Source of the DNA: Asterochloris sp. CNOR1
Lineage: Eukaryota; Chlorophyta; Trebouxiophyceae; Trebouxiales; Trebouxiaceae
Assembly: GCA_963969365.1 (NCBI GenBank)
Contig: OZ017755.1
Coordinates: 992,001-1,056,000 of the forward strand
Length of the DNA: 64,000 bases
Direction: 5' to 3'
The notes below the pieces were generated by a model. The model was not told the DNA's origin. It ran no database searches and saw only the letters and a program-made list of their open reading frames with translations. The stretch's first letter is position 1. Each line of letters starts with the position of its first letter. A program made the translations under genes and the position numbers. Of this stretch, positions 8,847-61,965 are shown piece by piece.

Positions 8847-11800
8847 CTATGCAACAGCAACTGGCTGCCTGTCGCCCATCTGCCGAGTTTTGGGCAGCTG
8901 CCTTCCCCGCGGCTTCACGTTCATATAGAGACCGTTGGTGGTGTGGATGGTGGCACCTGTTGTCATTTGAATGTCTTGTCCGGGCGTCAGGCGGAATTCA
9001 AATCTTTTGAGGGCCACTGCCATGGCAATGATGGCCTCCATCATGGCAAACTGGTCGCCCACACACTTGCGCGGACCCCCACTGAAGGGAATGTACCTGC
9101 GAGCAGCAGTGAGCATATGTTTGCTGCAGTTGATGGCCCTGAAGTGCCCTCTGATGGTCTCATGCTGAGTAAACAAGAAAGTGAACACATAATTTTTCCA
9201 CTGTGTTCAGCCCATGGTGCACCTCTGTGCTGAGCAGAATCTCTCATGCAGAGAGTGTCCATGCAGCAGTGGGTTATGTCAGGCTGGGGCGCTGATGTAG
9301 AGTGCTGGGCAGGTCTATACATGATCTGACCCACCCACCCCCTCTCGTGTAGGCTGCCTCAACAAGGAGCTCATGACCACAACCCGCCTTCCAAACCCAG
9401 CGCTGTTGCATACCTGTAGTCAGTATTCTGCTCTGTGGGTGGAGGGGCGTCCAGGTCAAAGCGCTCTGGCTTGAAGGACTCAGGGTCATCCCATACTGCG
9501 GGGCTGTGGTGGATGTTGTACACTGAAATCATCACGTCCTGACCCTTGGGCACGCTATAGCCGCCTGCAAGGTGGGCAGGGGGCATTTTGAGACTCCAGC
9601 CACTGGATGGGGCATGACAGCCGCGCTAATGTGTATGTTATGCACTCACCCCATCAAGTCCTCGAGCTGAGGCACACTGTGGCCGCCTGCAGCACACCCA
9701 TCCAGGAACACTGTGGGAGAAGCTTGACTCAGGCCACAGGCAGCACGCTTCTGCCGTCGTGTGCAGAAGCAGCTTGTGCTGAGCTGAGCTTGGTGCAGAA
9801 GCAGCTTCGGCTGTGCTGAGCTTGGTGCAGAAGCTGCTTAGGCTGTGCTGAGGACGTCTCCAGTGGGCCGGCCAGCAGATGGAGAAAATGCAGGGGCTGT
9901 GCTGCTGACAGGCTGCCCACATACGAATTTGAAGCTACCATGAGGACACTGCTGGAAGCAGGTGCAGATGGCAGTACTGTTGACACCACCTGACTGCTGC
10001 CAGTCAGCCCAGTACAGGCAGCGATGGCAGCTGCGCACCCCAGTCAGCTGCACTGCAAGCCCTCAAGCAGTCTGTCTGCCATGGTCCAAGTCCCCCTGCT
10101 CCTCTCCATTGCATGGGCGCCTAGTCATTTTCACGTGGCGGGCAGCAGGGCCCACCTGGCAGCTCATCTGCGATCATGGCCCTCCGCAGGAGGACAGGTG
10201 GGTGAGGGTACAGCCTCATGCTCTCATTCACACAGCGCATCACGTACTTCAGCTGGCCATAGTCTGCCACTGTGGGCTGATCCCTGTTGCCCAGCACGCG
10301 ATCCACCTCCTCTTGGGCCTGCACAGCAAGACACATCGCCATCATCGCAGTGCAGTCCTCTTAATCTGTGTAGGCCCATGGGCCTGCAGCTGACTGAAGC
10401 ATTGCTCTCTTCATCAGTCTGCAACCACCCCGCAGCATGCACAGCAGGCATATGGACGCCCACATCAGACATGAGGCTCTGCCTGATGGCCACTGAGCAT
10501 GGTATAAGCATCAGTAGATGAGGTGACCCCCTGCAGAGAGCCTGAGAGGAGGCACAGGGGCCCAGGACGCAAGCAAGGGTGGATTGGGGGCTCCCACACA
10601 CAGAGCCTGAGAGGCCACCCACCAAACGCCGCTGACGCACCTCGGCGTTCCTGGCAGTGCAGTGCAGTCAGGGCGGAGCGACTGTGCACCGCACCATGCG
10701 CACCTGCTCTGGAAGCTTTGCAAGCACCAACAACTTCCCCGACAACCCCTGACACTCACTAAACATATCGCCTTTGGATGCTGTACGAGCCCAAGTGCTG
10801 AGGCAGGCCTTGACACTGCATGGCATGTGCAGGGGATGCCACACAAGCACGGTGCGCCTCACGGCGCTCATGCGCGCAGGCAGCTCAATGGTGGGGACAA
10901 GCCTGCTTGCTGAAAGCACCACTTGAGCCCTCAGGGGGGAGTGCAATGAGCCAGCTCCAGTGCAGACTCACCTTGCGCATTTGCTTGGGGCTCATTGTGA
11001 GCACAACTGCTGGCACGGGGTCCTTGAAACAGATGCAGGGAGTGACTGCAGCAGCCCACTCCAGTTCAGTCTCATCATGCGCATCTCCCTCGGGTTGACA
11101 TTGTCGCCATTGGTATAGAGCCCATTGTCTCATGCCTTGCCACCAGCATCGTCAGCTGCGCAGCCTTACCTTGCACAATCGCTTTTATCTCTGAGCATCT
11201 CAAGCACCACAAATCTCCAGTCAACTGTAAGGGATCTGCTGCAGCAACGCAATCTAGTACAGCCTCACCTTGTGCATCTGCTCAGGGTTCTGCGTAAGCA
11301 GGTACATAGTCCAGGTCAGCACGGAGCCTGTGGTCTCATGCCCTGCCACCAGCATGGACAGCAAGTCATCCCGCAGCTGCGTTGAGGAGGCCTCCTCGCG
11401 AGCGGCTATGAGGAACCTCAGCACGCTGGGGTCTGAGTCATTTATATAGCCCTCTTCAAAGCTTTCCTGCACAGCAGCAGGCACAGCGTGAAGTTGTCAG
11501 CAGTATTTGCCATGCAAGTGTGCTGGATAGACCATGCTCCCCTGACCAAAGCCCTCCTGCATACTGGGCGTCTGGACTCCCTCGTCAAGCATGTCGTGCA
11601 CAGCAGTGGCCATTGGGGGTCCTGCAGCAGAGTGCTCAACAGGATGACGTCCCTGCATACGTCAGCATGAGGAGGGAGCTCGGGCCACCCCTTTTCATAA
11701 CAGTGGTGCACGATAGCAGGCACACAGATCTACTCCGCATGCATCGTCAGCTGAAGCTCACCATGGGGAGCTGCTGTCAGCACGTACCAGCCCGCTTTGA

Positions 11801-14800
11801 AGCCGCCCCTCTTGATTTCAGCTCACCTGTTTGGCGCTACAGCCCATGCAGTTCACTCAGCAGCTGATGAGTGCTGTCTAGTGCATCACAGCAGGCAAGA
11901 ACCACCACAGCCGCTGCACGCCAGCTCCAGACATGGCACTTTGGCTGAGCTAGCTGCCCTGAGCTGCCACATAGCAACAGGCGCTTGTCAATTCTGTGGC
12001 GTGCAGTCTCCATGCAGGCCAGCAGAGACCGCTTGTGGCTTCAGCTGGCTTGCTCTTGCCACCCACAACCTCCCTTGCGCAACGTCTTATGAGGACTGCA
12101 ACTGCATGCCAGGTCAAACATTACTGCAGGCAGGCTTCACAGCAGCCTGCAGCTGACTGGCTCCTCAATGTCCACAATCCACTTGGACCTGGCAATCAGC
12201 TGGCATGGCCAATGCTGGGAATGAGGAAGATATACCCGCCACCAAAGCTGACTGACCTGCTCCTCAGCGTCGACCATTTCCTTACACTTGGCAATCAGCT
12301 CCTCCGTGGTGCGCCTGATCAGGGCGACTGCATCCAGTGCCTTGCGCTGCCGAGGCAGGAACTGGGCCAGGGCAGGCACCCGCCACAGGGGCAACACATC
12401 TGTTGCCCGCTGCTCCGTCTCTTTGAGGGCTGTGTATACTGCCTGCAGTGTAACAGGAGCTGTTGCACTGGCAGCATCTGTGACATGTGTGCTGAGCACC
12501 CTGCCTGCAGGCAGGGTCCTTGGCAATGCCTGCCACAGGGACATTTGTGCCATCACCTGCCACAGGGCCTGCACGTCAGCTGCGCACTGCATCTGTGGCC
12601 TCTGGGGCTGTACACACTGCATGAAGACCAGACAAGGTACGAAATGTCAAGTGAGGCCCCTCGCCAGCTGCTTTGTCTCCTTCAGGGCTGTGTGCACTGC
12701 CTGCAGTAAGGCGGTGCAGCGTTGCAGGCACTTGCCACAGGGGGCAGCACATCTGTGGGGCGCAGCGCTGTCCTGCAGCGCTGCATACGTTGCCTGCAGG
12801 CAGCCACGGCAGGGACACTGGCAAAGACAAAATACTGGTCACGCCACCTGTCAAATGGGCAGCCTACACTGTCTGTTCCTGTGATGTGTCAGCATTGCGC
12901 ACTGCCTGCAGGGCAGATCTTAAGTAGCTGTGGCAGGAGGTGTGTCAACTGCGAAGGGCCTGCCAGATGGCCGCCATCCGTTGCAAGCTGTTCAGTCTCC
13001 GTCAGGGTCATGTGTATTGACTTCAGGCAAGCCAGGGTCATAAGTTTGGTCAAAGGGTTGTTGCATGTGCAGACATTCATCTCTGAGCTCGGAGGGGCAC
13101 CAGTGTCAAGGGGAAGCATACGGGTCATGGCAAGAGAAAACATGACAGCCAGCTTGCACCCAGACTCCCTGACAACATGTGGAGCTCTCACAGGAGAATG
13201 TTCCAGACGGGAGCCAGTGTGGGAGCCAGTCTGGGAGCCAGCTGGCAGTGCAGCTTCTCGTGAATCCCCTCAAAATCCTAGGTAACCAACCCATGCCGTC
13301 CAGGGTCAGCTGGCTCAAGCAGGCCTAGGCCCTCAACTCCCTTCTTGGCTCCAATTGGGGCCTGTTCCAGGTGCTGCCACCCAGGCCAACCCTGGGTCGC
13401 CATGAGATTACTGCAGGATAATTACTGCAGCAACCCCAGTCACCCTGAGCCCTTGCACCTGGATGAGCGGACTGTCAGTGTTGAGGGCGTTGAACTCATA
13501 GTTGAACACCGCCTTGCCAATCACATCCAGGGTGAGCTGGCTGAAACAGGCCTCCATGTCGATGCTCTCCCCCGAGTGCCCGGCCCCCTCCAGCTTGCTG
13601 CACAGATGCTGGGCTGAGGGCCCAAACACTCTGTCAATCATGGTGTTGAGGTAGGCCCTGTGCAGGGACGGGCCCACCGCCTTTCGGCGCACCCGCCAGT
13701 GGTCCCCACTGGCCACTGCGAAGCCATCGCCGAAAAGGAACTGGGAGACCTGCAGGGGCAGCAGCAGGCGTGAGCCTTCAGCCCCGGAACACCCAGGCTG
13801 AGCAGGCCTCAAATCACGATAAAAACTGCTTTCCTATAAGCCAGTTAGCAGTACGCGCACAGAGGGTCGTGCAGGCCCAAACTGCGATGGCAAATGTGCT
13901 GGTGATATACTGCACGACCTGATGGGCAGTGTCTGCAGCTAGCAGCCACTGTTCGGGCTGAAAGACATGCAGGCAGTGCTCGGCCGCTGCAGCCTCCCTG
14001 CACCTTGCCCAGAGGAGTGACTGTTGCATGCCTGACCTCTGCCACCAGCCCCTTGTCGTACAGGGGCCTGCTGGGGTTGTCACTGGACCGCAGAACATGC
14101 TTGGCAGCTGCTGGGTCGCTGACCACAAGGAAGCTGGTTACAGGGCCTGTACACAGACAGGAACAAGGGCATCAGCCGCTGAAGGTTGCCAGTCTGCCCG
14201 TGATGGGAGGCCCGCAGCTCTGCTCGGCCTTGCCACCCTTCACACAGAGATACAAGCCCAGACAGAAGAGCTTGCCAAGGGTTGCAGACATAGGTGCAAG
14301 ATCCAGGTCGGGCATGCTACTGGTTTTCAGGTAGAGGTGCAGGGCGCCAGCCCATGAATGAGTGCTGCTCCGTCCAGCAAGGCCAGGTTCATGTGCATAG
14401 AGGACCTGGAAACAATGTAAAGGCACAGGGTGTCATGCAGTGACTGTCACCGGTCCGGCCCTCAAACAGCTGATGCACACAGAGGCAGGATCGCCGCCCT
14501 GCGCCATCCCCACACATGACAGCCAGTTGGGGCTGCATGGTCTGCATGACTGGGCATCACGACACAGGGTGCCAGCCTGACACAAGTGCTGCTCTGCCCA
14601 GCACAAAGAAAAGAGCAGCCAGGCAGGGCTGCTATATCATGCTGCTCAGCATGGACATGGGGCTTCAGACTGCTGTCATCTGACCTGGTGGCTCCTGCTG
14701 GTCAGGGGACAGGCTGACCCTGCAGTCGGGCTGCAGCCTCAGCACCCAGAGCAGCTGAGCTGTATGCAGCAGGGTTGCAGCCAAAAGCGTGCACCTGTTG

Positions 14801-40350: not shown

Positions 40351-43300
40351 TCAGAGTCTTGAGTCCGCCAGCTTCTCCAGGATCTTCAAAGTGAGATTCC
40401 AGAAAGGCTCCACAGTGGTGACATCTACCTGCAGTCAGGCTTCGGTGTGAGCAACGGGCTCCCTCCTTGTTCCAGCATGAGGCACAACCCGATCACAGGT
40501 ACCATCCAAAGTGAGACGAAGTCAGAAGCGACTCCTCACCCGCTCATCAGGGCTGTGAGCTCCGCGAATTGTGGGACCATAGCTGACTGCATCCATGCCC
40601 TTGACACGCTCGCCAATAATGCCGCACTCCAGGCCGGCATGGATGGCTGCAGATCAACAGAACAGTGCGAAGGCCAGGCGCCAGGTGTCCTGCTGCACTA
40701 CCAGCAAGAAAAGCAAACAAGCTGCTCAGAAGACCATGCAGACCACAGGACCAGCATGAATGGCTGCAACATGCGCAAATGATAGGGTCTGGACATTGTG
40801 TTACAGAGGGGCCAAACAGTTGCTCATACGCTCACCGGCAACCTTAGGCTCCTTCCCCAGCACCTGTTGGTACACATCTTTAGCGACCTACAGGCCACAA
40901 CAAAGTGCACTGTCAGCTAATTGCACTACGCAGCAAAACCTCAAGCATCACAGCACTCTGTTTGCAAAGACAGCGCTACCGTGCACCTGATCTAGTGGGG
41001 CAGTTAGCACAGCAGCATACTTGTGGGATCTGCCTGGCAACCGGGTGCAGGCTGCTCATCTGTAGCACAAAGCATGGACTGTCTTGGGTCTCCCCCTGCT
41101 CCATTGGTGACAGCACTTGCTGCACCCCCCTGTGCACAGCATGCTGTAGTATAGGTTGCCAGGCATGACCATCAGCGCAGCGGGCTTCTCGAGGCGCCTG
41201 CTTGGCAGCAACAAGCGGCTGGGCTGCTGGGCCTGCCCAGCGCTGCTCTTGAGCAGACTCAGCGGGCAACATGCACGACACATCAGCCCACATCAGCAGC
41301 AGCAGATGCCTCTGGGTGGGGTGCTCAGCAAAGAGCAAGGTTAGGGACAGTGACAAATTGCAGGCTGCCCACCTGAAGCACTGGCGACTGGGGATTGGGG
41401 GCCCATCCAGGGTAGGCATCGGTCTGCTCTGCAGTGCCCCCACAAAGCCGTGCAATGGCAGCGATTCGAGCCCTCTGGGAATCCATTGCGCTGCCCAAGC
41501 TGCACGCAGCCAACCAGGCTGTGATCAGTGTGCTGGATGGTGGCCGTCACGCTCGCAGCTTGAGGGCCATCACGCTCAAAAGCTGCAGTCACAGATTCAG
41601 CCAGGCAGGAGCATTATGTAAACTAAGGGGCCACATTACCATGAAGTGGGTCAAGATGCAACAAGCATCACAAAGGAGATACTGTTGCAGCTGGCTCATG
41701 CAGGATGCTCTCCGATGTCTGAGTGGCTTCAACTTATATGCAGTGTGCCACCCAGCAGCCAAGCACATCTGCTCTCAGGAGCATCTGTAGGCAGACCATT
41801 CACATCACGTCCGTGGCTGCCAACTGCAGGATGCTCTCTTGGCAGCCAGGCACATCTGTGGCCGTCAAGCTGCAGAGCCAAGCTCTGAAACACATCTGCA
41901 GCTGGCCACGGCTCACCTACTGCGTGTGGAGCAGGTAATGGTGTAGCTGGTGGAGGGCTGAGCAGAGTCGTCTGGCGCCACAGCTGCCACATTGTTGGAG
42001 GTCTCTACCAAGCCTGCAGGAGCACGCTGACCTGTTCCATGCTGCTGGCTCCATTGCATTACATGGAAGCCTGCAGACCTGATGCAAGAACTGCAAGGGT
42101 GCCATTCATGGAAGCATCACCATAAAGCACGGATCATGTGGTGACTGCAGGAGTCAGCCCACCCAATGTCAAGCATGAGTGGCATGCCGTGGCGTCTAGC
42201 TGGAACCCTTGCAGGCATTGGATTGTCACCCATTCGCTCCCAGCACGGCATGTTTGTGCGCATGCAGAGTCAGGAGACACTCACACCCTTGCACAGGCAC
42301 ACAGGGCTGCCACTGCACCAGATGCAGTGTGGGAAACTACAACATGTCCCAGCCCAGCCATCACGTACCAACATACTTTGCATTGCAGGGGCACCGTCCA
42401 CACGCTTGTGGCAAGCAAGAGCATGCCGGCTCACAAGCCGTCTGCCCTCCTGGCAGTGTTTCATCCCCTCAAATCATTTGGCCATCATGCAGGCCTGTGG
42501 AAGCCTGCCAAAGCCCCATCACTCACCAGGTACTGCGTGCGAGTACTTGACAACGCCGTGGGGCAGCACGCGCAGGCACGTGAGCAGGCGGGCCAGGCTG
42601 CCGGGCGTCAGCACCTGCCCAGGGCGTCGGTCTGGGGCAGGGGCCATGGTGACAGACATGTCCTTCTCGAGGTCACCATACTCGGCTTTCAGGGCACGAG
42701 CCTGCTGGGCCAGCAGCTGCCTCGCGTGCTCCAGCAGTGGGGCTGTGGGGACCTGCAGCAGCCACACATGAGACCCTTGGCTTGTATTGGGCGCTGCGCT
42801 GCGTGGCCACCAGCCGCAGAGACCGATCTAGCATGGGCGCCACAGGGACCTGCAGCAGCAAGGCTAATCAGGTCTGGCAGGCACCTGCCAGACTGCCCGC
42901 TGTCACGCATGCTGCAGCAGGGGGCCAGCGAGAACCTGCAGCACACGAGGCTGTCATCAATTTCACAGGCCACCTTTCGGTGGGTCTGTCATAACAAGAT
43001 ATCAGCTGGAGGCTCCTGCAGGGATGGTGTGGGCACTTGCATTGCACACCAGGTCTGCCAAGCATCTGGAAGCCGCCGTAGGGCCCGGCGCCCATGTTGG
43101 AAAGCTGCAGCGCACGTAGATGATCTGTCTAGAGCAGACAAGCCTGCTGGGCTACTGTCTGCCATGTGTGATACAACAAGGAGGCCAAAGAGACCTGCAA
43201 TACAAAACCTGGCCACTGTCACATGCACAATGCTGACCGATTGATTGATCTGGACAAGTGATGATAGTCTGCAGCAGCACCATGCACTTGTTGGACCTTC

Positions 43301-46019
43301 AGGGCATAGAATATGCTGGACGGCCTCTACAAGCTGTCACACATGCTGCACAGATGGCTGTGGGCACCTGCATGGCAGCACAGAAGCCACAAGGTGGCAG
43401 CAGTATTAGTCATATTCTGTCCAGGGCTTCAGGGCGCTGGCCTGTCAGGGTCGTCGGCTGCCAGGCATGCCCCTGCCACTGGCGTCATGAGGACCAGCAG
43501 CAGCAGTCTGCACATGTGCGGGGTCGTGCACGTGCAGGCTGCCACCAGTACCTGTCCAGTCTGTGCTAGTCCTCCTGCCAGCTAAAGCGGTAGGCCTCAC
43601 AGCTGCATTAAGGAACAAGTGCCACGCCAGTGTTGCGAGAACAGCAGCACTTGCCAAGCTGGGCTGCATGTCCTTCTGAAGCAGCGCACCAGCACAGTTG
43701 CCTGCGCCTCCCTTGCAATGGCATTGCGCTTGTCGCCTCCACGAAGGTCAGCAGCTCTGATCTCAGGGTGCTTGGACAGCAGCGCCTCCAGCAGCTGAGC
43801 CAGCAGAGCCACAGCGTTGCCCCTGTCCTCATTGATGTTCAGGCCTGTAAGACACCTCAGCCATGTCAGTGTCCAAGGGTTTGATGGTCAGATGGCATTG
43901 GCAGTGTCGTGAGGAGCAGCCTCAGCAGTCCTGACAGACATTAGAGCAGGCCAGGGGCACAGGCAGCCAGGCTGGACCTGGTCCTTCATGACATGAATCT
44001 CAGGTGTGTACAGCAAGCTGCACGTGTGCAGCTCACCTTTGAGGCTGCATGCAAGGCAGATGTGCAGGAATAGCTGCAGGTCGCTGGAGCGTCCCCTGGC
44101 CAGTTGCCTGCAGCCTGCAAGTGCAGCCAGATATGCTCCATCCTCTTATAAGTCCGCCATCACCTGAGTGGCCGCCCATGAGGCCTGAGATCCTGACCAG
44201 CTGAGGCTCGTAGTGGTCATTTGGAGCTAGCTCGTGCTCCACTGGTATGTGCAGCAGGGAGTCGCCCCCTCCTGCACACCCTATGAAGATCTCTCCCCAG
44301 TCCTGGATGCAAAGAGCTGGACTGTGTTGGGGCGTTGCCAGGTGGTAAGGCTTTTGGGCTTGGTGTCTGACATCGAAGCTTTGGGCCCCACCTCTGTGTC
44401 CAAGTTCAGCAATGTCCGCCCTGAGAGCATGCTGCCATCCAGGCCAAAAGCCCCTGCACAGCACAACAACAAGATTGCTTGATGGCATTTGAGACCACCG
44501 CCCTGTCAGCATGCTGCCATCCAGGCCAAACGCAGGATGGCGGGGCCTGTCAGCATGCTGCCATCCAGGCTAAACGCAGGATGGCAGGGCCACTTGGGAG
44601 GCAGACTAAAAAGGGGTCAGCTGTGTGAGGCTGGGGGCAGCACGAGGGTCTGCCTTGCAGTCAGCACAGTGTCCAGCAGGCGAGAGATATGCAGCTGCAT
44701 CCCTGTCAGTTTGAGGATCTTGGGTCTCTCACGCAGATGCCCCTCCATTCTCCCCTACACAGCAAGAAAGATGTAGCTACCCATGTGCCTCACTGTACCC
44801 AGCACCTAGACGTCATCTGGGCAGCAGCCTAGATGAATGCAGGGTCAGAGTTGTGGTGCACCTGTGAGCCCTGTCTCCTCGTCTGTTGTGAACAAACACT
44901 CCAGTGGCGGAAGCTTGGCTGTCTCTGGCAGGTCCAGCAACGCCAGGGCTGTGGCCACCCCCAGGCCATTGTCTGCCCCTAAGGTGGTGCCTTGTGCCTA
45001 CAGCAGGCACAGCAATTGTCAGTCCTGTAGTGTTGTGCCTGCTGTGTGCAGCAAGATGCGGGCATGTCTTGGCAGACACTTCTCTTATATTCTGGACGCT
45101 GCTTCGAGGATGGCTGACACCAGTGAAGCCAAAACTTGGCCAGGCAACCTTAGAGTGGACAGCCAGAGAAGAATGGGACCGCATCAGGCGTGCTGCACCA
45201 CACCTTGAGCCAGTCCCCGTTCCTCTGTAGCTTGAGTGGGTCCTTGAAAAAGTCATGCTGCACATCTGCATTCTTCTCCGTCACCATGTCAACATGCCCC
45301 TGCACGCAAGACAGCAAAGTGGTCCGTTGTGCAGGAAGCTTGGCTGCATCGCGTCTTATCTTTTACTAGTCAGCAGCCTTTGCATGCCTTATGCTTTGCA
45401 GGCGTCGCAGCACAGATGAGACCGCATCTAGCTTGCCTGAATGACCACAGGAGGTGCCTGCTCGCCACCACCTGAACCCGGCCGGTAGATGACCAGATTG
45501 CCTGTGGCATCCTGTTGGTACTTCAGGCCCCGCTTGTCTGCCAAGTCCCTGAGATGCTGCAGGATCCTGCATGGTGCAGGGAGTCAGGTACAAGCAAACA
45601 GGGCCAGCAGCGTGAACACAGCATCCAATACCAGATGCAGGGGTTGCTGACCTCCCCTCATGCTTTGATGGCCGTGGGATCTGAGTGATGTGATAGAAAT
45701 GCTGCCACACTGCACGCAGCACACAGTCTCACACTGTTGCTGGGCGACAGCATAGCAGCAGGCCTTACACGCTATCACTGATGCAGGACTAACCACTTGC
45801 TGGGTGCAAGCCTTCAATGGCACTGACAGTCATGCTGTACGGCTTTTCAGCCACAGCAGCAGCTGAGGCCACAAAACGAGATGTGTACGAAGTCTGCAAC
45901 CTGTGTTTCTGGCCGTAGCAAAGTCTTGTGCAACCAAATGGCAATAATGTTCTATGTATGGATGCCAAGTTGGCGCGCATAAGCGACTGCTGGTTATTGT
46001 TTTGGACAGGAAATTCCAT
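40351..46019 (-). CDS. PepD-type aminoacyl-histidine dipeptidase (peptidase M20), organelle-targeted
   Basis: The product is an Xaa-His dipeptidase of the bacterial PepD type, a two-zinc M20 peptidase. Exons, in transcript order: 46019-45797, 45709-45652, 45566-45437, 45299-45204, 44997-44862, 44453-44392, 44302-44164, 43844-43690, 42752-42527, 42013-41917, 41499-41373, 40887-40836, 40646-40540 and 40428-40351. They total 1,686 nt (561 aa) and close in phase. PepD landmarks are [22 protein letters not shown] (metal His and Asp), [20 protein letters not shown] (catalytic Glu pair), [50 protein letters not shown] and RGAHSPDE. About 70 residues precede the catalytic domain and look like a transit peptide. 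One intron has a GC donor (45436). Confidence 0.92.
42790..42960 (-). repeat. Decayed copies of a PepD exon start in the preceding intron
   Basis: The exon beginning at 42752 and its acceptor read, in plus-strand view, GGGGCTGTGGGGACCTGCAG at 42738-42757. Similar blocks recur to the right in the intron: at about 42820-42857 (GGCGCCACAGGGACCTGCAG), at 42912-42945 (GGGGCCAGCGAGAACCTGCA), and more weakly beyond 43000. Confidence 0.7.
44500..44590 (-). repeat. Two near-identical tandem copies of a PepD exon start
   Basis: The plus-strand block AGCATGCTGCCATCCAGGCC at 44427-44446 belongs to the exon that starts at 44453. It recurs at about 44508 and 44552 in the intron just upstream, each time followed by AAACGCAGGATGGC. 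The two intron copies are nearly identical to each other, so at least one duplication is recent. Confidence 0.9.
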
Positions 46020-49400: not shown

Positions 49401-50121
49401 GCTGTAAAGCCTTCTCCAGCCGCAAATTGCGCAATGAGTAGACATGCTGCAGGACTTCAGCCTTTGAACAGTCAGCACACATTGGCAATGTTCTCAAGAC
49501 AGGGCTGCTCAATTCTCTTAGACATCTCCTGGATGGGAGACAACAGGGCTGTTCAAGCACTGCTCACATGTGTCAAAGAGACCCTCCAGGCACTCCACAT
49601 TCACCTGCAACGAGCAGCAGCTGATTCAGCGATACCACAGCTCACGATGACAGGCATTTCCAGGAGAGACCCTCACCAGGAAGTCGATAATGTCAGCGTC
49701 TGTATAGTCCTGCTTAGCCGCAATGCCAGCTGCAGAGCACAAAGAGCATGGCTGAGGTGATGCTGTCAGCCACACAGGCTGCTGTGCTTGGTGTCAAGCG
49801 TGTGATGTGCCACATCGTGGGTCAGTAAGCGTGATTAATTGCGCACGCCACGCCTGTGCTGTATAGGGAACTGATTTGACAGGGCTGCAGCCATGGTAGT
49901 TGCGAGCCACTCCACGTTGGAGAGGCAAACACACCTTCGATCTCACGAGCCTGCACTGGCATCAGTGTCAGGTTGTATGGCCCATCACGATCGCTGGTGC
50001 GCCAGTTGCCCAGAGGCAGCACGCCTTGGCCTGGCTGGAAGGGTTGGGCCAGGCAGCCCGCCAGGCAGGCAATTGCCACACATAGTGCTGCTGAGCTCTG
50101 CAGCAGGAGCAAAAGGGACAT
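46459..50121 (-). CDS. Secreted desiccation-related protein, PCC13-62 / ferritin-like family
   Basis: This is a member of the PCC13-62 desiccation-related family, which carries a ferritin-like (Ferritin_2) domain. Exons, in transcript order: 50121-49935, 49729-49677, 49604-49568, 49361-49291, 49044-48921, 48608-48463, 48226-48116, 47980-47935, 47732-47521, 47314-47209, 47055-46964 and 46719-46459. They total 1,446 nt (481 aa) and close in phase. Residues 1-25 are a classic signal peptide (poly-Leu core, cleavage near CLA). The ferritin-like helices follow: YTDADIIDFLVNVECLEGLF, ELGGPKPVGCRKAPLS and LNEQGHALFTRHAG. These carry the Glu and His residues of the fold. Later features are GFFPEG and a polar C-terminal tail of about 85 residues ending in Cys-containing sequence. 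The tail could instead splice on at a GTGGGG donor. A cell-wall or extracellular stress role is inferred from the family. Confidence 0.88.
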
Positions 50122-50464: not shown

Positions 50465-53400
50465 TCAAGCTTTGTGTTTCTGTTTCTTGCTGCTTTGGTG
50501 GCCGTCTGCTCTGACATCACGCCCATGCTTCTTTCGCTGTCGCTGATACATCTTTTGCACCTTCTTGGGCGCTGCAGCCTCAGGGCAATCGGCAGCAGAG
50601 CTCTTCAGCGACACCACGCCGCTGGCCGGCAATGCCTGCTCCCCCACAGCCTCTTGAAAATCTTCTAGCTGCCTACGAACAGCAAACTCCTCCAGCTCCT
50701 CGGGCTTGAGAGCCTCCCGCATGCTGGCCGTCACCGTCTGCATACCAGGGGTGAGTGCATGTCAGATGCAGAAGCCTTTGGCCATGAGGTTTTGCAGCCA
50801 GCAGACTTTAAACCTCATGGCAGGCACAGGCTAAAGTCAGCAGCCAGGGCAACAGCTTGCCCAAAATGGCTGGTGCTCAAACCACCTGCCAAGGCAGCTC
50901 CGATGCACAGAATGGTGCCGGCTGGCTCTGGACGCAGCCAGCTGCACATTCAAGCCCATGGCAGAGCTCATCAAGTGACAAAATGCAGCACTGCCCCCAG
51001 GCTCTGGGTACAGACATCCAGAGGCACAAGCCTTGGACAAAAAGATCATGCAGGCCAAGGAAAGGGCTCAGGTCTCAAGAAATAATGCAGCACCTTGGCT
51101 GCCTCCTCCAGCTCTTCGTCCAGACCCTGCTCATGGGGAGCAAGCTCCACAGGCTTGACCTGGGGCAACGTGCGCTCCACAGCAGCCTGCTTAGCCGCTT
51201 TCAGGTGCCCATGCAGCTTGCGCACTGCCTGCAGACAAGGCACCATTAATCTTGACGATGAATGCAGCATACATCAGCCTGCCAGCTGCTGCTAGGGAGG
51301 TTCTGGGTTGCATGCAAACAGCAGACCTGCAACAATTGGCTTGGCAGTTCGACGTCGGGACCTACATGCTCCTGCCTTTATGACACTAGTACTCTGAAGA
51401 TTGATGTGGACCTGACTGAGCTTGAGCAAAGCTGGCTTGTGCTATGCAAACAACTGGGAACAGTTGAGAGTGGCCATTATGCAGCCGCAAATCAACTTCT
51501 CGGCTTGCATCCTTGCTTCAGTGGCAAGCCTCTGCCTCTGCAGGCGCAGACCCACCTTATTGAACAGCGCCAGGACCTGGTTGGCAGGCAGCTGCAGTTC
51601 CTGTTCTGCACCTGACACCTCCTTCATTTGTAGGCCTAGGCTGAGCAGGATGGCAGCCTGCGCATGGGACAAGGATGCCGGCAACTTCCGGGAGAAGAAA
51701 GCCCGAGCCAGCGGGGGTAGCAGATCCAGAATCAGATGGTGGTCCACCAGGTTGTTGGCATATGCCTGCAGCAACAGTGCTCAGTGCTGTCGGGCTGAAC
51801 CGCAGCCACAGCGGCATGGTAGCTGGATGGCAATAAAGGGCCATTATGCACACGAGAGCTTGGCTTGGCAGATGTGACCTCATTGTTTGGGTGGGGCCTC
51901 AGTCAGCACCCTACACCTCTCACTGGTGGCTTTGACTGTGTAAGGCCATGTGTTGGCAGCCTCTGTGCATACAGCTCCAGCATCATGCAGCAAATCAACC
52001 CTACCTGCAGGCGCTTCAGGTCATATGCCGAGAAGGGCTCCCCATCGGCCTTGGCCACCGGCAAGCCCTCCTTGATGCTGCTCTGCGTCTCAGCCTCGCT
52101 GAACGTCAGCTGGGGGCTCAGAATGGATAGCGCCAGCGCAGGCTTGAACATCCGGAATGTCCCCGTGAGCAGCGCAATGAAGCGCGCCCGAAAGTCTGCT
52201 ACAAATGGCTGCAGCATGAAGGGGCCAGCAGTCAGCTGTGGCAGTTGAATGGTGAAACATCCTGCAAGCACCGCCGAGCAGCACAAACCACTGTGCTGAT
52301 AATCACACAGTCTTCAGCAGGCAGGGGCCTGTAGCCAGCTGCAGCAATGGAGAGGTGCCCCATACATGGCCACACATAGCTGCAGCAGTGCAAATTCCAG
52401 GTGGGTAGCTGATTCAAAGTGGGACTACACATGCTGTGGCACTCGCCAAGACCATGGCTGGATGCCCCAACCGCATCTGCAGCCTGTGCACCAGCAGCAC
52501 CATAACACCCCTGGAAAGCCATGGCTGCATGTTCCCTTTGCAGCGCATGCGCAAGCCCCATTGTACATCAATGCAGCATGTGCAGGCACTTAAGCTGCTG
52601 TCATGTTGACCTTGGTGTGTGCCAAAGCAAAGCTGCACTGTGGTCAGCAAAAAGCTTTAGAGCAGTCTGCAGGCATGCAATCGCACCTGAAGCCACTCCA
52701 CTCCATGCACCTCTGCTGACTTGAGGGCAGACAACATGACCACTGTATTCTCTCCTGCAGCAGGCAGCACTCAGCACCAACCTCATAAGTATTGGCACGC
52801 CACCCCAGCCCTCCCCCATATGTCAGCTGAGCCATGGACATGCAATAAACGCAGCAGGCGACACAGGTGCAGGCAGCCCAGCACCTGTCATGCACTTCTC
52901 ACACTGCTAGCAGCCAGGCCCAAGCCTGCACAGTAGAATGCGGCACTGAGCTACTGACCGGTCTGTCGCCACATGCCATGCACCAATCCTAACCCTGGCA
53001 GGTGGATCCACAACATACCCAGGAATGCACAGCAGACACCACCCTTGTTCTTAAGGCAGCCCAGCTGCCATGCACCTTGCTTGGCAAGTCCAGCTCTCCC
53101 CTACGATGCAAGCAGCAGACGGCAGCTTGAGGTGCAGCCGGACTCAACGCCATCTGCCACACATTGTCTCTTCGCTGGAGGCTGCCCGCAGGTTGACTCA
53201 GGATGCGCACGGCACACAGCGGCGCAAAGGTGCAGACAGTTCTGGCCAGAGCCACCTGCCACGCACCTGTCACATCGCTGGCGGTCTGCCTCAGGTACAG
53301 AGGCTCAAACCCACTCCTGTGCCAGAAATTGTACAGCTCCTGAGTGAGGCCAAAGGAGGTTCCAATCCACTGCAGGGCCTCAGGTGGGCGCTCCCCCATC

Positions 53401-56400
53401 GTCAGCAGCAGGGGTGGCACGTCGCTCCTGCAGGGCCAACGGCAGCAGTGTCAACCACCCCGCAAGACAGCAGCAGCGGTGGCGCCCTTCGTGAACATGC
53501 CACCAGCCCGTATAAGGGGATGGCATGTGGCCTGATCTGCCTGCCTGTGAACATCCTCTTACCGAGCGGCTCCCTCCCCGCTGACAGGCCTGCTGATGTG
53601 GCACTGCTTGGGGGCCTTGCCAATGCTGCCATGCCAACCCACCCCTACAGGACTGCAAGAGGTCCAGCTGTGCAAGCAGCATGAAAGGATAGGGCGTCCT
53701 GCAACGCAGAGACAGCACTCACAGGGCCCTCTGCATTGCATCACACTACATTGCAGCATGCACATGCAATCCAGCCCACCTAGGCTGCAGCCGCTCTCTC
53801 TGCAGCCTCTGCCCTGTCCCCGCTGCAGTGCCGTTGGCTTCTGGGTGGTCCCTGCTGTCTGTGCCTGCCCCTGGCTGCTGCCATGTCTCAGCGCTGGGGC
53901 CTGCAGCGTCAGGCAGCTCCTCATCATCCCCCGCATCTGCCAGCTCCCCCTGGTAGTACCGCCGCAGCAGCTCCACGGTACGAGTGCCATACCTGAGGGC
54001 AGGCAGCAACACAGTGTGAGTAGTCAGGCAACAGATCCACAGTCTGGAGGCATATTCCTCCGCGCCGCAGCAGCTCCACAGCCCATGTGACAATGGCAGG
54101 GACATAAGGTTAGCGAACACACAGCAAAGGACACATGCTAGGTCAGTTTGGTGACCGCGTCTCCCTGATAGCACACCGCAGCAGCTCCACTGTCCAGGTA
54201 CACATATGATGGCTGGCAGGGACACAGACTGGACTAGAGCACAGAATGGCAATCATGTTGGCCTCCAGTCTGGGGCTCTATCTGATGATACGCTGCAGCA
54301 CCTCCACAATGCAGGGGCAGGCTGGGACACAGCAGCCGCAGGGCAAGGCACGGAGGCAGCAGTAATCCCTACAGTCTGGACGTGCATCCGCTCCACAGTG
54401 TGGGTGCCCTACCTGAGAGTGGCTGTCCAGTAGGGTCCTGCCAGCAAAGCGCATGCAAAGGCTGAAGCAGCTCTGAGTCATGACTGGGTGCAACCAGGCC
54501 ATAGGCAAGCAGCTGTACAGCCTGCAGGCGCTACCCTGGGGAGATGTGTCACAGGAGGGTCCAGTCCATGCTGTTATTGGATGTGAAGCAGCCGAGCACG
54601 ATGTGCGCACCCTGCCCGTGATAGCTCTGGGTGCACAGCAATGCGCACAATGCGGGCTCCTGACAGTGATGGGAAGTCAGGATCCTGGTACTGCTGCCCA
54701 ACAGTCCAGGGGATGAGGTCGCCCTGCAGCAGGCGACACCGGTCTCAGGGAATGGGCATGCACCGCGTGCCGGCATCAGATGTGCAATGTGTTCATGGAG
54801 CAGCTGTCAAATTGGGCCACGATGAACAGCATGCATGGTTTGCAAGGCTGCAAGCTCGCCAGAATGCCCACGGCAAGCCTCAGGTAGCTGCTCCCTTTGG
54901 TGCACCTGGGGGAGCTGGCCCTGAGCCAGATTGTTCAGGGCAGCCTTTTTGGAGATTGCTCCCTCCAAGGCCACCTGAGCCACGCAGAGGATGTCTGGCA
55001 GTGCATTCTGCAGCAGACATCAGCACTGCCTTCAGATGTGACAACTTGGCAGCTGTCTGGCACCGTCAAACAGGGGTGTCTGGCCTGGCTGTTGCAGCAG
55101 GCAGCAGCGCTGTTGCTAGCAGGGCTGACATTATCTCCTATGCAGGTCACAGGCCTGGTGTGCTGCAGGTGGCACTGACCACAGAATCAGTTGCACAATT
55201 GTTGATGAAGACAAGACATACAGCTGCCGCATGCCACTGCAAAGGCTTGGCCACCAGGGACAGCATGTGATGCTAGTGCAAACATCACCTGCCCCTCCTC
55301 CACAGGGCCCAGCAGTGCAAACAGGTGGTGGGCTGGGGCATCACTCATCAGAATCAGATCATTCGGGGTGTTCCTGTAGTGACTGGCCACATACAGCGAC
55401 ATCATGCGCTGCAGAAATGCCTCTGAGGCCTGCACGCAGCAGATGGTGACTTGTCTGCGTCAATTTGTGCTGGCTATATGCAAGTGGCCGCGTGCTGCAG
55501 AAACGCCTCTGAGGTCTGTGCCATGCCTCGTACTACCACCCTGGATGCTTGCTATTGTAGTGCAGGATAGGAAGAGCTCCCCGGGGGTCATTTTGTTGTA
55601 GATGATCATGGTGTCTGTGTTGCATGACAGTGATGTGCACAGGCCCAGCTGTGATACAAGACCAGACTGCCCATGTGGGCATGCCAGCAGCTGGCTTGCC
55701 TAGTGCATTGATCATGCTGTTGTTTGCTGCATACCTGCTGTGTACAGAGGTTGGGGAGGGCGGCTTGCACCATGCAGTTTGAGGCGTGCATTTACAGCTG
55801 GCACACACCTTGTGATATGAGAAAAGGGTGTCTCTGTTGATGTAATACAGATCGCACTCGCTGGGATGGGGCAGCCTGGCAGGCAGTTTGGGGATGTGCT
55901 CTGCAGCATCCAGGCACAGCAGCTCGTGCAGCCAGGACTCCACTTTGTCACCCGCAGCATACCTGCAGCAGCAGGCGCCGACTGTCAGCTGCCCTGCAGA
56001 ACCCGTTTGCAGGAGTCAGGGCCATGCATCTCAAAGCCTGCAGTGATTGTGCAGCAGCAAGCAGTGACGATCAACTGCCTGCAGAAGATACCTGCAGCGG
56101 CTAGAGGCTTGGGGCTGAGCTGGTTGCAGAGCTGAGCTGACTACATATGCCAAGTGCATCATTGAAGGTTCATGCAAGGTGTTTACATTGTAGAGAGAAT
56201 ACTGTGAGCTGTAGAGGGGCTAAATGCTGACAATAAGGATGAAGGGGCAAGTGCTAACAGTACAGAGGACAACCCTGCAGAGCACAGCAGGCTGCCACCT
56301 GCTCAGCAGAGGAAAGCAATGAACACAGTGAGTTGCCAAGAAGGTCTCAAAGGTCTACATCTCAAATCGCCCATAGCTGCAGCAATACATGAGCAGCAAT

Positions 56401-59400
56401 ACTCACATGCACATACTGCAGGCCAGACTTCTCGGTATGATACCTCAGGCATGTGCATCACTGAAAGTGCGTTCGTTCCTCTACTGTGGCTCCCCACGGT
56501 ATAGCTCCAGGCACAGGGGACTTACCGGATGGGCTCCTGAAGCTGCACCTCCCTGAAAGTGCGGTTGCCAGCAGTCAAGGATGTCTCTTTCCCCTGTCCT
56601 GATGACAGCTTTGCACCCTGCAGCACCATGACTCTCCAACTTTGTGCTGGAGATGCCCCTATCCGCCAGGTGGCGCGGCAGCCAAAGCCCGGTACACACC
56701 ACAGCATCAAGCCCCTTGATGCTTGCCATCCACTCAGAATGCATCACATGTGACCTCTAGCATGGCAGGCGCAACTCACTGAACAGCAGCTGGGGTCCTC
56801 AGGCATGGTGCAGCCTGACATCTCTGGCAGCAATCCTGCACAAGGCCTAAGCAAAACAAAGGGAGGTGACTGCTTGTTGACAACCTTGGCTGGCACTAAC
56901 AATGCAGAGACCATGTAAGTGCTTCTCCATGTGAGCAGCGCTTCCAGGTCCTGAGTGTAAGCTGCTGGCACACAGCAGGGATCCCCAGCATGTCCCTTAC
57001 TGCTCAAGTGTGCCACACTCACCTCTGCCCGTAGCTGCTGCAGCAGCTTCAGGGAGAGGCTCCTGCCAGTGCCCTCGTAGCCGTTTACTGTGGAGCACAG
57101 GAAGACGAGGTAGGGACCCAGCATGGACTTGACCAGAGGCAGCGGGATGGCTGCAGCCTCGTCAATCACCAGCAGCTCTGCCTGGCCCAGCTGCGCGTGG
57201 TGCTGGGGCTGGATGTACTGCACAGTCTGCAGGCAGGCAAGCACTTCCCTGAAATACACGGACACTGACAGAGGGGTGTCCAGGCTGCTGTAACCCAAGT
57301 CATTCAGAACACTCTACCACGCACAGGCTGCCCCAGCAGCAACAGATGCTGTTACGGCTATGCTGGGTCTGCATGAGCTACTATGTTGCTCACCTGCTAG
57401 CGGGACAGGGTGACGCAGACACCCAGACCAGCAAGAGAAGGCAGGCTGCCTCATCAACAACACTGAATGCTTCCTATTGCTCCTTTGGACGGCTGCCCGC
57501 CAGCCCCGGACTTCATAGACGCAGCCCACCGCTGAATGCCTTGCACAGTGCCAGTGGCTGCTGCACGTCAATCATGACAACCCAGGTTAGGTGTGGATGC
57601 TAACCACGTGCCACCCTGTTTTGCTTGGCAACAGCGATTGGCCGCTTGAATGGTGCCTACCTGCCGGTGGCTGCGGAACACATTGACGCGGACGATGGCC
57701 TTCTGGAAGGCTGGATTGGTGCTCTCTACCAGGTCATAGTCTATGTGTTCCTTGTAGTCCAGGCTGTCGAGCCCCTTGAACACGAACTCAAACAGGGTGC
57801 GCAGATTCTCTGGGGATGGTGCCGTCACAAAGATGTTGCTATAGCCCAGCGCGAGAGCCCCAGCAATAGCCAGGCCCAGGGCCGCAGACTGCAGCAGCAC
57901 CACAGCACATACAGATCGACAGCTGCCTGCTCCAAACGCAAGGCAAAACAGTGCTGCAGCCCAGCGCAAGGGCCCCAGGGGCTCAGGTCAGGACAGAGGA
58001 GATGGTGAGGCAAAGCAGTGCTGCAGCCCAGCATGAGGGTCTCAGGCAGGGCCTCAGGCAGAAGGCGCAGGGCTGCCAAATGCAGCTTGTGCCCAGCAGC
58101 CACAGGTCAGGATTGAGGTCACGTCTGGGGCTACAACTGGTACCAAAGTCCAGTGCAGGGACCTTGGCAATGCACAGCAGGCATGGGTCAGACAGGTGCT
58201 GCAGTGTTTCAGAGACAGATCAGCAGCATTTGTGAGACTGCTGACCGCCACCTGCAACCCCGTGCGGTGGGCAGACTGTGTGTGTGGCACAGGCTGGCAG
58301 CCTGCTGCAGGTAGGCTCTCTCCCAGCCAGATGTAGAGCAGACATGCATGGGCAACTACCCAAAGTGTCACCAGCAAAGGAGCCATTCACCAGCCTCACC
58401 TTGCCACGGCCTCTGGCGGCTGTCAGGGCCACTGTGCTGCGCAGCGTTTTCTCTGAGGCTGCATCCAGGAAGGTCACCACTGCCCTGGCCTGATCCAGGG
58501 TTTTGCATTTGGCCACTAGGGAACCAGCTGGCTGCAGGCAACAACAATACAAGCTGAGAGATGCCACTTGGCCACGCTGTGTGGTTTTTAAGCAGAAAGC
58601 ATGTCTGGGCTGCAGATGCACAGGGAGCATGCTGGGCTAAGGCGCATAGGACGCTGCAGTTCAGCAGGCATCTTGTCTGGTGATGATGACGAAGTAGTGA
58701 GCCGGGCTGCTGCAGCTTGGCATGATTGTCCACAGCCTAAGGAGTGGGCTCTGTTGAGCCAGTCCACTGCACTGTGAGAAGTCGCCATTGGTGCTGAGCA
58801 AGCCCGCCCCCCCTTCCCCCCAACAAACTCATCTCGCACAGCACTGCAACAACCCTGAGCCATTCGTGCATGGCCGCCCAGCAACGCAGTGAGCTCCTTC
58901 ACTCCAGCAGTACGAGCAGGCCCCACACCTTGAACATCACTGATGCAAGTCCTTTCCTGCCCAGTGGCCCTTCAACTTGGTCTCCTCAGCAAGGCAGTCA
59001 GCTCAGCAGCGGCCTGGGCGCCGAAGTGAGAGACCCACAACTGAAACATGTCTGTGTTAGTGATGATTGTACCTCATGCGGGTATCCTCCAGAACGGCAG
59101 CCAAGCTCTTCAGCTCAGCAGCAGTTCAGGACTTCATGCTAAGCACAGCCCTTTAGATGCCTTGCATGCTGAATGGCAGCTCACCTGAGTGTCCTCCAGC
59201 GATGAAGCCAAATCTTTCAGCTCAGCAGCAGACTGGGCCTCAGAGTTGGGCACTGCAGGTGTGCCATCTGGATGTAGCTGGATGGGCTCGATGTGCTTGA
59301 CATGGGAGGATGTGGGAAGGATGTTGAGCTCGTCATCCATCAGCAGGCAGGCTGTGTTGCTGGCAAGGGAAAGAACCAGCCGCTCATTGAAGCGCCCTGC

Positions 59401-61965
59401 AGGGGTTGGGCCAGCAATCACCATGTAGGACGTGTTGCTGACCAAAGCAGCACCAGCTGCTTGATCGCGTCCTGAAGAGGCAATGCAGCCTCTGCTGAGC
59501 GTGACGCTGACGTCGTGCTGGCTGCATTGCTGGCCAAGGACCCCGCAGCCCTTCATATGAACCGCCCTAGCGGGGCATGTGTGTCCCTCAAAGAAGTCAC
59601 TGACATCACTCAAGACATGTACTGCAATGCAGGTGCACCTGAGTGGCAGCAGGTGATATGATCTGCAGCGCCTGGCTGGTTGCACTCCTCCAAACAAAGA
59701 CGACACAGCGCTGCTGGGCAGATGCCAGACCAGACAGCTGATCCACTGCATGCCCATGCAAGATGCACCTGGCAGGTTTTCGTGACTCTCAACGGAAGCA
59801 TGTTGCACCTGACAGGCAGTGTCATGTCATCATATACTGTGCCATTTGGGAGCACCCCACACGTGTGCACGGCTCTCCCTCAATGGCCAGCTGCTCTCAG
59901 ACACCACCCCACCCACCCCTCTGCCGGCAATCCAGGCAGAGGCCATGCAGCCTACATGTCTATGTGACCTCACGGTTTGAGGCCAGCTAAACCCGAGCTC
60001 CACCACAGCCAACCCTCTGTTCACACACTTCATGCACAGGCCTCGCACCTCGCACGTCCTTGTGGCTCTCTGTTCGCAGCCTGCTGTGCACGTCCATGGT
60101 CAGGTCGTACAGCTGGGTCAGGCTGTCCAGAGTGCTCAACAGCATGACTACAATGCCACCCCCCTCAACTGTCTCCATGGTGCGGGCCAGCAGGTTGGGC
60201 GTCAGGGCCTCAAAATCCTGCAGTGCAGCGGGGCAAGGATCCAACAATTGATGATGCCTGCTCACACATTGCTAGGGAGTTGCTGCCCATGATGCCAGCC
60301 AGCAGCTGGGCGTCAAGGCCCTAGGTTCCTGCTGAGCAGCACACTTGCTCATGAGAAGGGGTGCTGCCGGTTGCTGGTGCCCTCCAGGTACATCTCTGGC
60401 AAATGCTGGCTGCGATTTGGGCCAGCAGATCAGGCTTTGGGGCCTGAAACCCTGCAGTGGCGCAGGCATCCTGTCCAGGTAGACTCAAAGGTGTGTTCTG
60501 GGGCAGCAGATGACTTTGGGCGCTGTGGGTGTGCAACATGACGTTCGCATGCCCGGCCTCTGCTTGTGCTGTCGTCAAGTATGGTTCAGCTTCAGTAGGG
60601 TCGCTGACATGGACCTCAAGGTCTTCCCAGGAGAGAGCTGCAGGCAGCAAGGATATGCTGGGGTAGTAGCGATAGTCTACTCTTGGGACGTGGGGCCATA
60701 CTTCCTTGGGCTTTTGAATGCCTTGCATCACTTGCATCGCCCACACCTGGAGAACGCACCTGCTGAAGGTGTTGCCCTTGTTGGCACAACGCTGCGCAGT
60801 GTGCTCCTGTGCTGTCTCGCTGCATCTTTTTCCAGCAACACAACATCAAAGCATCTGAGCGCCTCACCTGGAGGACACACATGCCGAAGGTGTTGCCCAG
60901 CACCTTGTGGGTGTCGTGGTAGTAGCAGTAGCGGATGTTGGTGGAGGCGACAAACAGCGAGAAGGGGTCCTCCTGTTCAGGGTCCAACAGGCCACGCTGC
61001 ATCATTTTTTTGATCTGGCGCATGCGCTTCTTGCGGTGGCTGCAGGCAACATGCAAGTCGTGAATAGCTGCGGGCAGCACCAAAGCCTGGGGTTGCTGGT
61101 GCAGCAGGCGATGGCTGCAGGCAATGTTGGCGCATGCATTTGCCATGGCCGCAGGCAGCGATGCGTGGTGGGCGGCTGCTGGCAGCAGTAGAGACTAAGG
61201 TTGCTGTCCGCAGGCACCGGCAAGCGACAGGCTGGGCCACAACGATTTGACAGCACCAGGCACTGCATGCTGATCTGAATTACATGCTTCTTGCAGTGGC
61301 CTCAGCCAAAGACTGAGTCAGTCACAGAGGCCAGCTGGAGCAAGCGAGCTCTGCTGGCCGGCTGGATCCCCGTGCAGGTACCCTGCAACTGCCCAGGGAA
61401 GAGGGAGTTGCATGCAGGATGTGACTTGCAGGTTTGAGCTGCTGCCTGCTGGTGTGGTGCCGCTGCCTGGAGTGTTGAGACACACCAATGTATCCCACCT
61501 GCTGAAGTGCAGGTCCTTCTTGTAGCACCACAGTACAGATGGCCTGGCCTTCACAACCGTCTTGGACAGCATGTAATGAAGGTTGACAACCTACATAACT
61601 GAGCAGGAATATCAGGTTGCCAGACACTTCATCTGTGCATCAGGCCAGCACACACATTGGCGCAAGAGGCATGCTGCACCCAGGAATTGCCTTCTGGGCC
61701 TGCCATGAGCAGATAGCAGCAAAAGCTTCCCGGCCACTGTTGCAAATTATCAGGGCAGTGGCCCAGCACTTCTGAGGGCACACCATTGGCAATAAGAGGT
61801 CAGGACAGCGCCTGCCCCAGTCAGAATGCAAGCCAAGGCCTGCAGTGCTGGACCAGTCACCTGGTCCCGCCCCTTGTCGCCAACAATGACAAACAGCGAC
61901 CGCTGGCGCAGCTTTACGCAATTCTCCACCAGGGTCCTGATGCGGTTGTCCACCTTTTTCCTCAT
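50465..61965 (-). CDS. NAT10: RNA cytidine acetyltransferase NAT10 / Kre33
   Basis: This nucleolar enzyme makes N4-acetylcytidine in 18S rRNA and tRNA, using acetyl-CoA and ATP. Exons, in transcript order: 61965-61861, 61590-61499, 61039-60868, 60217-60049, 59396-59185, 58531-58400, 57888-57661, 57226-57023, 56617-56526, 55962-55809, 55429-55289, 55007-54906, 54723-54611, 53992-53780, 53427-53267, 52261-52005, 51765-51556, 51228-51094 and 50737-50465. They total 3,165 nt (1054 aa; human 1025), all in phase. Order of domains: N-terminal MRKKVDNRIRTLVEN and KARPSVLWCYKK; helicase with Walker A ARGRGKSAALGLA (split by an intron after Lys) and DEAAAIPLP; GNAT fold RIVRIAVHPELSRAGYGTRTVELL; C-terminal FGLTQELYNFWHRSGF and AYDLKRLQ. 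The protein ends in a Lys-rich tail typical of nucleolar proteins. Several introns contain exon-edge copies. Confidence 0.96.
54030..54420 (-). repeat. Four decayed copies of a NAT10 exon start in its upstream intron
   Basis: The real edge at 53958-54000 reads, on the plus strand, TACCGCCGCAGCAGCTCCAC followed by GGTACGAGTGCCATACCTGA. Related blocks occur at about 54059-54090 (CCGCGCCGCAGCAGCTCCAC), 54172-54200 (CACCGCAGCAGCTCCACTGT), 54285-54315 (ATACGCTGCAGCACCTCCAC) and 54385-54420 (CCGCTCCACAGTGTGGGTGC, then CTACCTGAGAG). Each preserves part of the acceptor side. Confidence 0.85.
57950..58110 (-). repeat. Decayed copies of the NAT10 helicase exon start
   Basis: The exon starting at 57888 reads TAGCCCAGCGCGAGAGCCCC on the plus strand at 57842-57861. 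Copies follow upstream in the intron at about 57956-57990 (GCAGCCCAGCGCAAGGGCCC) and 58023-58060 (GCAGCCCAGCATGAGGGTCT). Both are preceded by a shared GCAAA(A/G)CAGTGCT block. Confidence 0.75.
58869..59140 (-). repeat. Decayed copies of a NAT10 exon end and donor in the following intron
   Basis: The exon ending at 59185 shows on the plus strand TCCTCCAGCGATGAAGCC and then CTTTCAGCTCAGCAGCAG. Copies occur at about 59085-59130 (TCCTCCAGAACGGCAGCC then TTCAGCTCAGCAGCAG), near 58965-59015, and near 58869-58917. Confidence 0.75.
60285..60465 (-). repeat. Decayed copies of a NAT10 exon start in the upstream intron
   Basis: The exon starting at 60217 reads GCCAGCAGGTTGGGCGTCAG on the plus strand at 60186-60205. 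Copies lie at about 60296-60330 (GCCAGCAGCTGGGCGTCAAG) and at 60415-60465 (TTGGGCCAGCAGATCAGGCT, then CCTGCAGTG). Confidence 0.75.

Follow-up and report, generated by a model that had tools for sequence, protein, structure and literature searches.

Introns of the green alga Asterochloris sp. CNOR1 carry diverged direct copies of the edges of their own flanking exons, many of them crossing the splice junction, and these exon echoes are a real feature that extends beyond the stretch in which they were first noticed. We think it likely that they stem from short head-to-tail duplications that arise roughly regardless of gene structure and are then sorted by selection and decay. The window, by which we mean the whole 64-kb stretch analyzed at the outset (C10:992001-1056000, OZ017755.1), belongs to a genome of 56.4 Mb in 21 contigs. 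Our main dataset was 264 kb of one contig, made up of the window and the next 200 kb, and 40 kb of contig C3 served as a second dataset. As no annotation was at hand, we built a small gene finder, a hidden Markov model trained on these 264 kb, and all gene models are therefore ab initio and made without RNA. The gene finder converged on 33 genes and 472 introns with sharp splice sites and a strong consensus (donor CAG|GTGAG, acceptor CTGCAG|G), the two sites having CAGG in common. Fourteen false exons called from echoes (echo exons) were taken out by rule, leaving 491 exons and 458 introns; the rule overlooked at least one, at 10471-10530 in the CYP97 gene.

The identity of the four genes named in the earlier note was checked by homology. 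The P450 gene, earlier labelled CYP97B, has the structures of CYP97C1 and CYP97A3 as its best matches, the NAT10 gene matches human NAT10, and the PepD gene matches Xaa-His dipeptidases. The ZW10 gene matches the Pfam domains ZW10_C and ZW10_C2, which do not reach its first echo array. Residues that the gene finder drew from echoes are missing in the CYP97 and NAT10 homologues. Between NAT10 and PepD, a predicted gene at 46512-50097 carries a Pfam Ferritin_2 domain; the gene finder fused it with both neighbours, and we assume it to be the Cys-rich gene of the earlier note.

To gauge how common echoes are, we took a probe of 70 nt of exon and 70 nt of intron at each junction, aligned it to the rest of its own intron and compared the score with 100 length-matched samples from introns of other genes. 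Introns of at least 150 bp were tested (n=347). All 100 nulls were beaten at 44/347 donors and 47/347 acceptors, against 3.4 expected on each side. Over the 33 predicted genes in the 264 kb, 69/347 introns had z>4 on either side. In 57 of these 69 introns, spread over 17 of the 33 genes, the copy takes in more than 4 nt of exon, and the other 12 have intron-only copies. With the uncorrected gene models, 51 donors and 50 acceptors out of 344 beat 60 nulls (5.6 expected), and on contig C3 (40 kb, echo exons kept) the counts were 12/56 donors and 7/56 acceptors (0.6 expected each). Donors and acceptors are affected equally, with 38 best alignments each. Out of these 76, 52 extend more than 4 nt past the junction in both directions and 61 hold more than 4 nt of exon; the other 15 are intron-only and so are not exon echoes. 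These results bear out the report of echoes in CYP97, ZW10, PepD and NAT10, of copies that overlap the exon boundary and the splice site, and of both donor-side and acceptor-side types. Introns with an exon-including copy number 2/8 of those tested in CYP97, 5/13 in ZW10, 6/19 in NAT10 (8/19 when intron-only copies are counted too) and 2/9 in PepD. Genes with compact introns were said to show little of this, and we found 1/6 introns in the DSP gene (z 4.1) and 1/9 in the Ferritin_2 gene (z 4.2). When the same probes were compared with introns of other genes in the 264 kb, scores stayed at background, as would not be expected of introners or a dispersed repeat family, and repeats at far offsets were near zero at the same score, which also argues against such a family. 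The echoes are local, as had been proposed.

The features concerned, all in the window, are given below, with offsets in bp.

12257..12442, minus strand: CYP97 true exon, echoed at its acceptor edge; this stretch is single in homologue 6l8h and double in the ab initio protein.
12443..13458, minus strand: CYP97 intron with five acceptor-side echoes at offsets 177, 258, 351, 401 and 578 (z 12.2), four of them aligned with the real site.
10319..11268, minus strand: CYP97 intron with donor-side echoes at offsets 193, 297 and 574, in 10531-11268 (z 11.0).
31833..32301, plus strand: ZW10 intron whose acceptor-side echoes reach as far as 391 bp from the acceptor that precedes exon 32302-32523 (z 12.8; predicted frame).
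33942..34609, plus strand: ZW10 intron with donor-side (133, 282, 587) and acceptor-side (162) echoes (junction test, spacing analysis).
35516..35938, plus strand: ZW10 intron with acceptor-side echoes at 85 and 231 (z 13.6).
42753..43689, minus strand: PepD intron with five acceptor-side echoes of the exon start at offsets 97, 183, 442, 613 and 741 (z 9.0), all five aligned.
44454..44861, minus strand: PepD intron holding 44-bp units that are copies of sequence in exon 44392-44453 (z 8.2); the best alignment is exon-only.
52755..53266, minus strand: NAT10 intron with donor-side echoes at 100, 281 and 368 (z 9.0).
53993..54610, minus strand: NAT10 intron with four acceptor-side echoes at 103, 214, 332 and 420 (z 14.0).
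58532..59184, minus strand: NAT10 intron with donor-side echoes (59066-59124 against 59173-59231; offset 214; z 5.5).
59397..60048, minus strand: NAT10 intron with donor-side (96, 281) and acceptor-side (170) echoes (junction test, spacing analysis).
60218..60867, minus strand: NAT10 intron with donor-side (121) and acceptor-side (111, 234) echoes; 14-residue insertion relative to human NAT10.
61040..61498, minus strand: NAT10 intron with acceptor-side echoes at 109 and 260 (z 10.8).

An example is the PepD array at 42753-43689, where the acceptor and exon start are present in five copies, four of which keep TGCAGGT and the fifth TGCTGGT. The PepD array could be aligned over 93 columns with a mean column identity of 65%, and the CYP97 array over 97 columns with 70%. 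The PepD copy at +97 corresponds to the ab initio exon 42811-42849, removed as an echo exon. Two ab initio 'exons' in CYP97 intron 10319..11268, at 10972-11022 and 10471-10530, have no counterpart in the homologue, and only the former was removed from the models. In NAT10, the ab initio exons 60609-60637 and 60747-60759 were rejected as spurious, given the 14-residue insertion relative to human NAT10.

Neighbouring copies lie mostly 75-170 bp apart (median 124 bp, 5th-95th percentile 76-262 bp, 118 spacings). Defining head to tail as an aligned length of at least 0.8 of the offset, we found this arrangement in 22/48 gapped pairs with an offset of 60-170 bp. The arrays had been described as holding two to five copies; arrays of four and five copies do exist, but at 52 of the 76 echo junctions a single copy could be detected. 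Minisatellites and short tandem duplications likewise have head-to-tail units and few copies. The echoes differ from minisatellites in being strongly diverged and in spanning exon edges. Tandem Repeats Finder reported 19 rows in the window and missed most of the named echo arrays.

Consistent with local duplication, a self-comparison of 66 chunks of 4 kb, with each chunk compared with ten other chunks as the null, revealed 96 local direct repeats scoring at least 22 against 7.8 expected, an excess of about twelvefold that is larger at higher scores. Ungapped direct-repeat offsets are most frequent at 75-105 bp and fall near background past about 600 bp. Offsets below about 95 bp seem to be undercounted by BLAST, and there the ungapped offset table replaces the BLAST figures. 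Both this table and the placement counts below omit low-complexity segments and three repeat-rich blocks (144100-144960, 148880-149400 and 140800-143800 in the joined 264-kb coordinates). An alternative count of 61 direct pairs was not used, being too low because the low-complexity filter discards stretches longer than about 140 nt. Inverted repeats were also above the null (50.5 against 7.2 in the 66 chunks). We rejected this excess as a signal of duplication, as 34 of the 35 inverted pairs kept are single hairpins; short palindromic hairpins are in excess in the window and the following 200 kb. The highest-scoring local duplication in the 264 kb is a direct repeat of about 400 bp, 92% identical, in predicted intergenic sequence of the 200-kb extension (L009:149-932). 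Also in the extension, L009:4890-5393 is a repeat-rich predicted coding stretch with copies 77-85% alike, which was omitted from the placement counts.

In the explanation that we favour, segments of typically about 75-170 bp would be duplicated head to tail at a high rate, roughly independently of gene structure, with replication slippage or end-joining as the candidate molecular step. Within an exon, nearly all survivors would be duplications that keep the frame, and within introns and between genes both copies would decay and soon become unrecognisable. Where a unit lies across a splice junction, splicing would keep to the site next to the exon body and leave the protein unchanged; the intron would gain one unit, with the discarded exon edge and splice site left inside it, and repeated events would build arrays of two to five copies. 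Such echoes would stay recognisable longest, since the real exon edge is held by selection and mainly one copy drifts. We infer that the inner sites are mostly unused and that the introns were formerly shorter.

The placement of the copies was examined with 70-nt probes in 125 introns of at least 300 bp. The 70 nt of the exon edge was echoed in 48/250 cases, compared with 2/164 for exon sequence 70-140 nt deep. Intron edges were echoed in 12/250 cases and intron interiors in 17/250 (p 0.44); as edges are not above interiors, this argues against junctions as the target. On contig C3, eight probe classes in a small sample gave 5/38 for exon edges, 0/19 for deep exon and 3/76 for intron probes. 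Pairs internal to exons numbered 10, against 13.8 expected by random placement, and all ten have offsets divisible by 3 (p 1.7e-5); putting the omitted repeat blocks back gives 16/17, and adding low-complexity sequence as well gives 37/39. Among junction-crossing and exon-intron pairs, 32/85 offsets are divisible by 3. The in-frame excess within exons indicates that selection shapes which duplications remain. One in-frame duplication of this kind is a 48-bp tandem repeat at 3900-4040 in predicted coding sequence (AAEQAALAA...). With the splice core set aside, alignments that cross a junction are identical at 1563/2114 exon positions and 709/1036 intron positions. Slower decay of the exon copy thus accounts for at least some of the prominence of exon edges. 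How far this goes was gauged by simulation. Overall, exon edges are echoed at 3.3 times the intron rate (95% CI 2.1-5.1). At a constant duplication rate, the simulated detectable life of exon-side echoes is 1.6-1.7 times longer, and with ages fitted to the scores the simulated detection ratio is about 10, an overestimate, since the fit assumes that each copy spans the whole probe and the fitted ages are thereby too high. The two simulated values bracket the observed 3.3.

We also considered whether a process tied to splicing or transcription preferentially duplicates junction DNA, which we regard as unlikely. Relative to random placement, junction-crossing pairs number 47 against 27.7 expected and exon-intron pairs 38 against 26.7, with 5 intergenic pairs against 19.6, a shortfall left unexplained by uniform duplication and equal decay. 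Together with an exon-edge rate whose interval lies above the constant-rate persistence prediction, these counts make a moderate preference for genes or junctions possible. Against targeting, intron edges are echoed no more often than interiors, in-frame duplications also survive within exons, and the equal numbers at donors and acceptors give no sign of polarity. Still a little less probable, in our judgement, is the fuller version in which introns grow mainly by junction-aimed duplication, for instance at places where DNA is made prone to breakage by nascent RNA or the spliceosome, and the inner acceptors form a standing reserve of alternative sites. Overall, the results can be accounted for without a junction-aimed process, though there may be a modest junction preference.

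The state of the copies bears on whether they serve as regulated alternative splice sites or alternative exons under selection. In the exon parts of echoes, 49/57 gaps are not multiples of 3 and so would break the frame. Stops are fewer than in permuted sequence (5 in 788 echo codons against 13.6, p 0.004) and synonymous changes more numerous (125 against 84.8), as selection on the copies would have it, but the synonymous excess and part of the stop shortage come from the exon copy's own evolution. Donor cores have decayed about as much as the sequence around them, with an identity of 161/234 (0.69) compared with 537/721 in exon and 416/620 in intron sequence, and GT or GC is kept in 16/26 donor copies. 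Acceptor cores are better kept, at 192/231 (0.83) compared with 811/1121 in exon (0.72) and 395/576 in intron sequence (0.69), and AG is present in 24/33 acceptor copies; the better conservation is due in part to the fixed parent site and to alignment anchoring. The scarcity of stops and the well-kept acceptor cores hint at past or present use of some copies. By weight matrix, 17/26 acceptor and 10/26 donor decoys score above the 10th percentile of predicted real sites. Judged from sequence, the copies appear mostly dead, with reservations, and some decoy sites are probably usable. Although 14 echo exons were taken as genuine by the ab initio gene finder, the residues inserted by echoes are absent from the CYP97 and NAT10 homologues, and we consider a regulated, selected role for the copies improbable.

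Still more improbable is the creation of new introns by tandem duplication of an AGGT exonic segment (the Rogers/Hellsten model). The CAGG common to the donor and acceptor consensus fits this model, but under it an intron's donor and acceptor junctions must be copies of one another. When the junctions were superposed, 0/387 introns reached 15 of 26 non-core matches (0.3 expected), in a test whose reach does not extend to very old gains, and mean matches in this register were 6.74 against 6.60 of 26. Chance similarity from composition, splice motifs in common or coding triplet runs can hardly be the explanation, for although some weak pairs involve CAG-rich coding sequence, the nulls were real introns carrying the same motifs, counts at far offsets are near zero at the same score, and the PepD and CYP97 arrays align over their 93 and 97 columns at the identities given above.

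Returning to short head-to-tail duplication sorted by selection and decay, a tandem duplication inside an intron necessarily makes the intron longer. Consistent with this, the share of introns with z>4 is 6/114 at 150-250 bp, 10/91 at 250-350 bp, 25/84 at 350-500 bp and 28/58 at 500 bp or more, with length-matched nulls; for exon-including copies the corresponding counts are 3/114, 7/91, 19/84 and 28/58. The median length of echo introns is 465 bp and that of the others 235 bp, and subtracting the farthest offset from echo introns leaves 234 bp. We rejected this match as proof of growth, since a random offset would halve the length too. The earlier note had proposed intron growth by duplication across splice junctions. 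This was supported in part. In its favour, the copies are local, direct, often head to tail, junction-crossing and commoner in longer introns; a special role of junctions was not supported, as intron edges are not echoed above interiors and duplications occur inside exons too.

Events of this kind are already known. In a potato RdRp gene, one tandem duplication across an intron-exon boundary made a new intron with a cryptic donor (PMC4974935). There too the unit crosses the boundary with the branch site, pyrimidine tract, 3' splice site and exon edge, and an exon segment became intron; the difference is that a single new intron arose there, whereas here echoes are frequent, existing introns seem to be lengthened and donors are involved as well. 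The direct, local, boundary-crossing copy that marks the potato case is found here, with 52/76 alignments crossing and 22/48 pairs head to tail. Intron gain by AGGT tandem duplication (Rogers 1989; Hellsten 2011, as cited in PMC4974935) is alike in that a tandem duplication alters exon-intron structure and leaves the protein unchanged, but the donor-acceptor homology that it requires is missing here. Mammalian pseudogenic exons, defined by a frameshift or stop, occur in 0.4-1.0% of genes, with 12-22% on the opposite strand (Morais and Harrison 2009, PMC2718932); in contrast, the echoes affect 17/33 predicted genes and are mostly partial exon edges in direct orientation, numbers that are not strictly comparable because the methods differ. 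Exonize, which applies translated searches to annotated genomes, recognizes degenerate exons and the match classes 'inter-boundary' and 'intronic' (PMC12343006), and classes that span exonic and intronic sequence resemble exon echoes. Among the matches listed, titles and abstract openings hold no description of abundant arrays of decayed exon edges that lengthen introns, and in the available text of an intron review (PMC3488318) we found nothing on exon echoes and no occurrence of the phrase 'intron growth'. The earlier remark that such arrays have no standard name holds only in part, as the ingredients are in print (PMC4974935, PMC2718932, PMC12343006). The abundance of the arrays looks unusual. 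What looks new is the density of echoes and their link to intron length in an alga.

In the Chlamydomonas group of algae, introns are long and lack the usual peak at 60-110 bp; such lengths have no known advantage, and their driver is likely ancient (PMC8226300). If short tandem duplication lengthens introns, exon echoes would be a readable record of that growth, because selection preserves the exon half of every duplication, and their number, spacing and divergence could yield the rate and history of intron growth. Echoes also provide a natural experiment on splice-site choice by the spliceosome where several similar sites compete. In practice, ab initio gene finders will call false exons from them, as happened 14 times here. 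A younger, shorter array, also in a CYP97 intron, lies at 9761-9856 and consists of three 32-bp tandem units, the second and third of which are 91% and 78% like the first.
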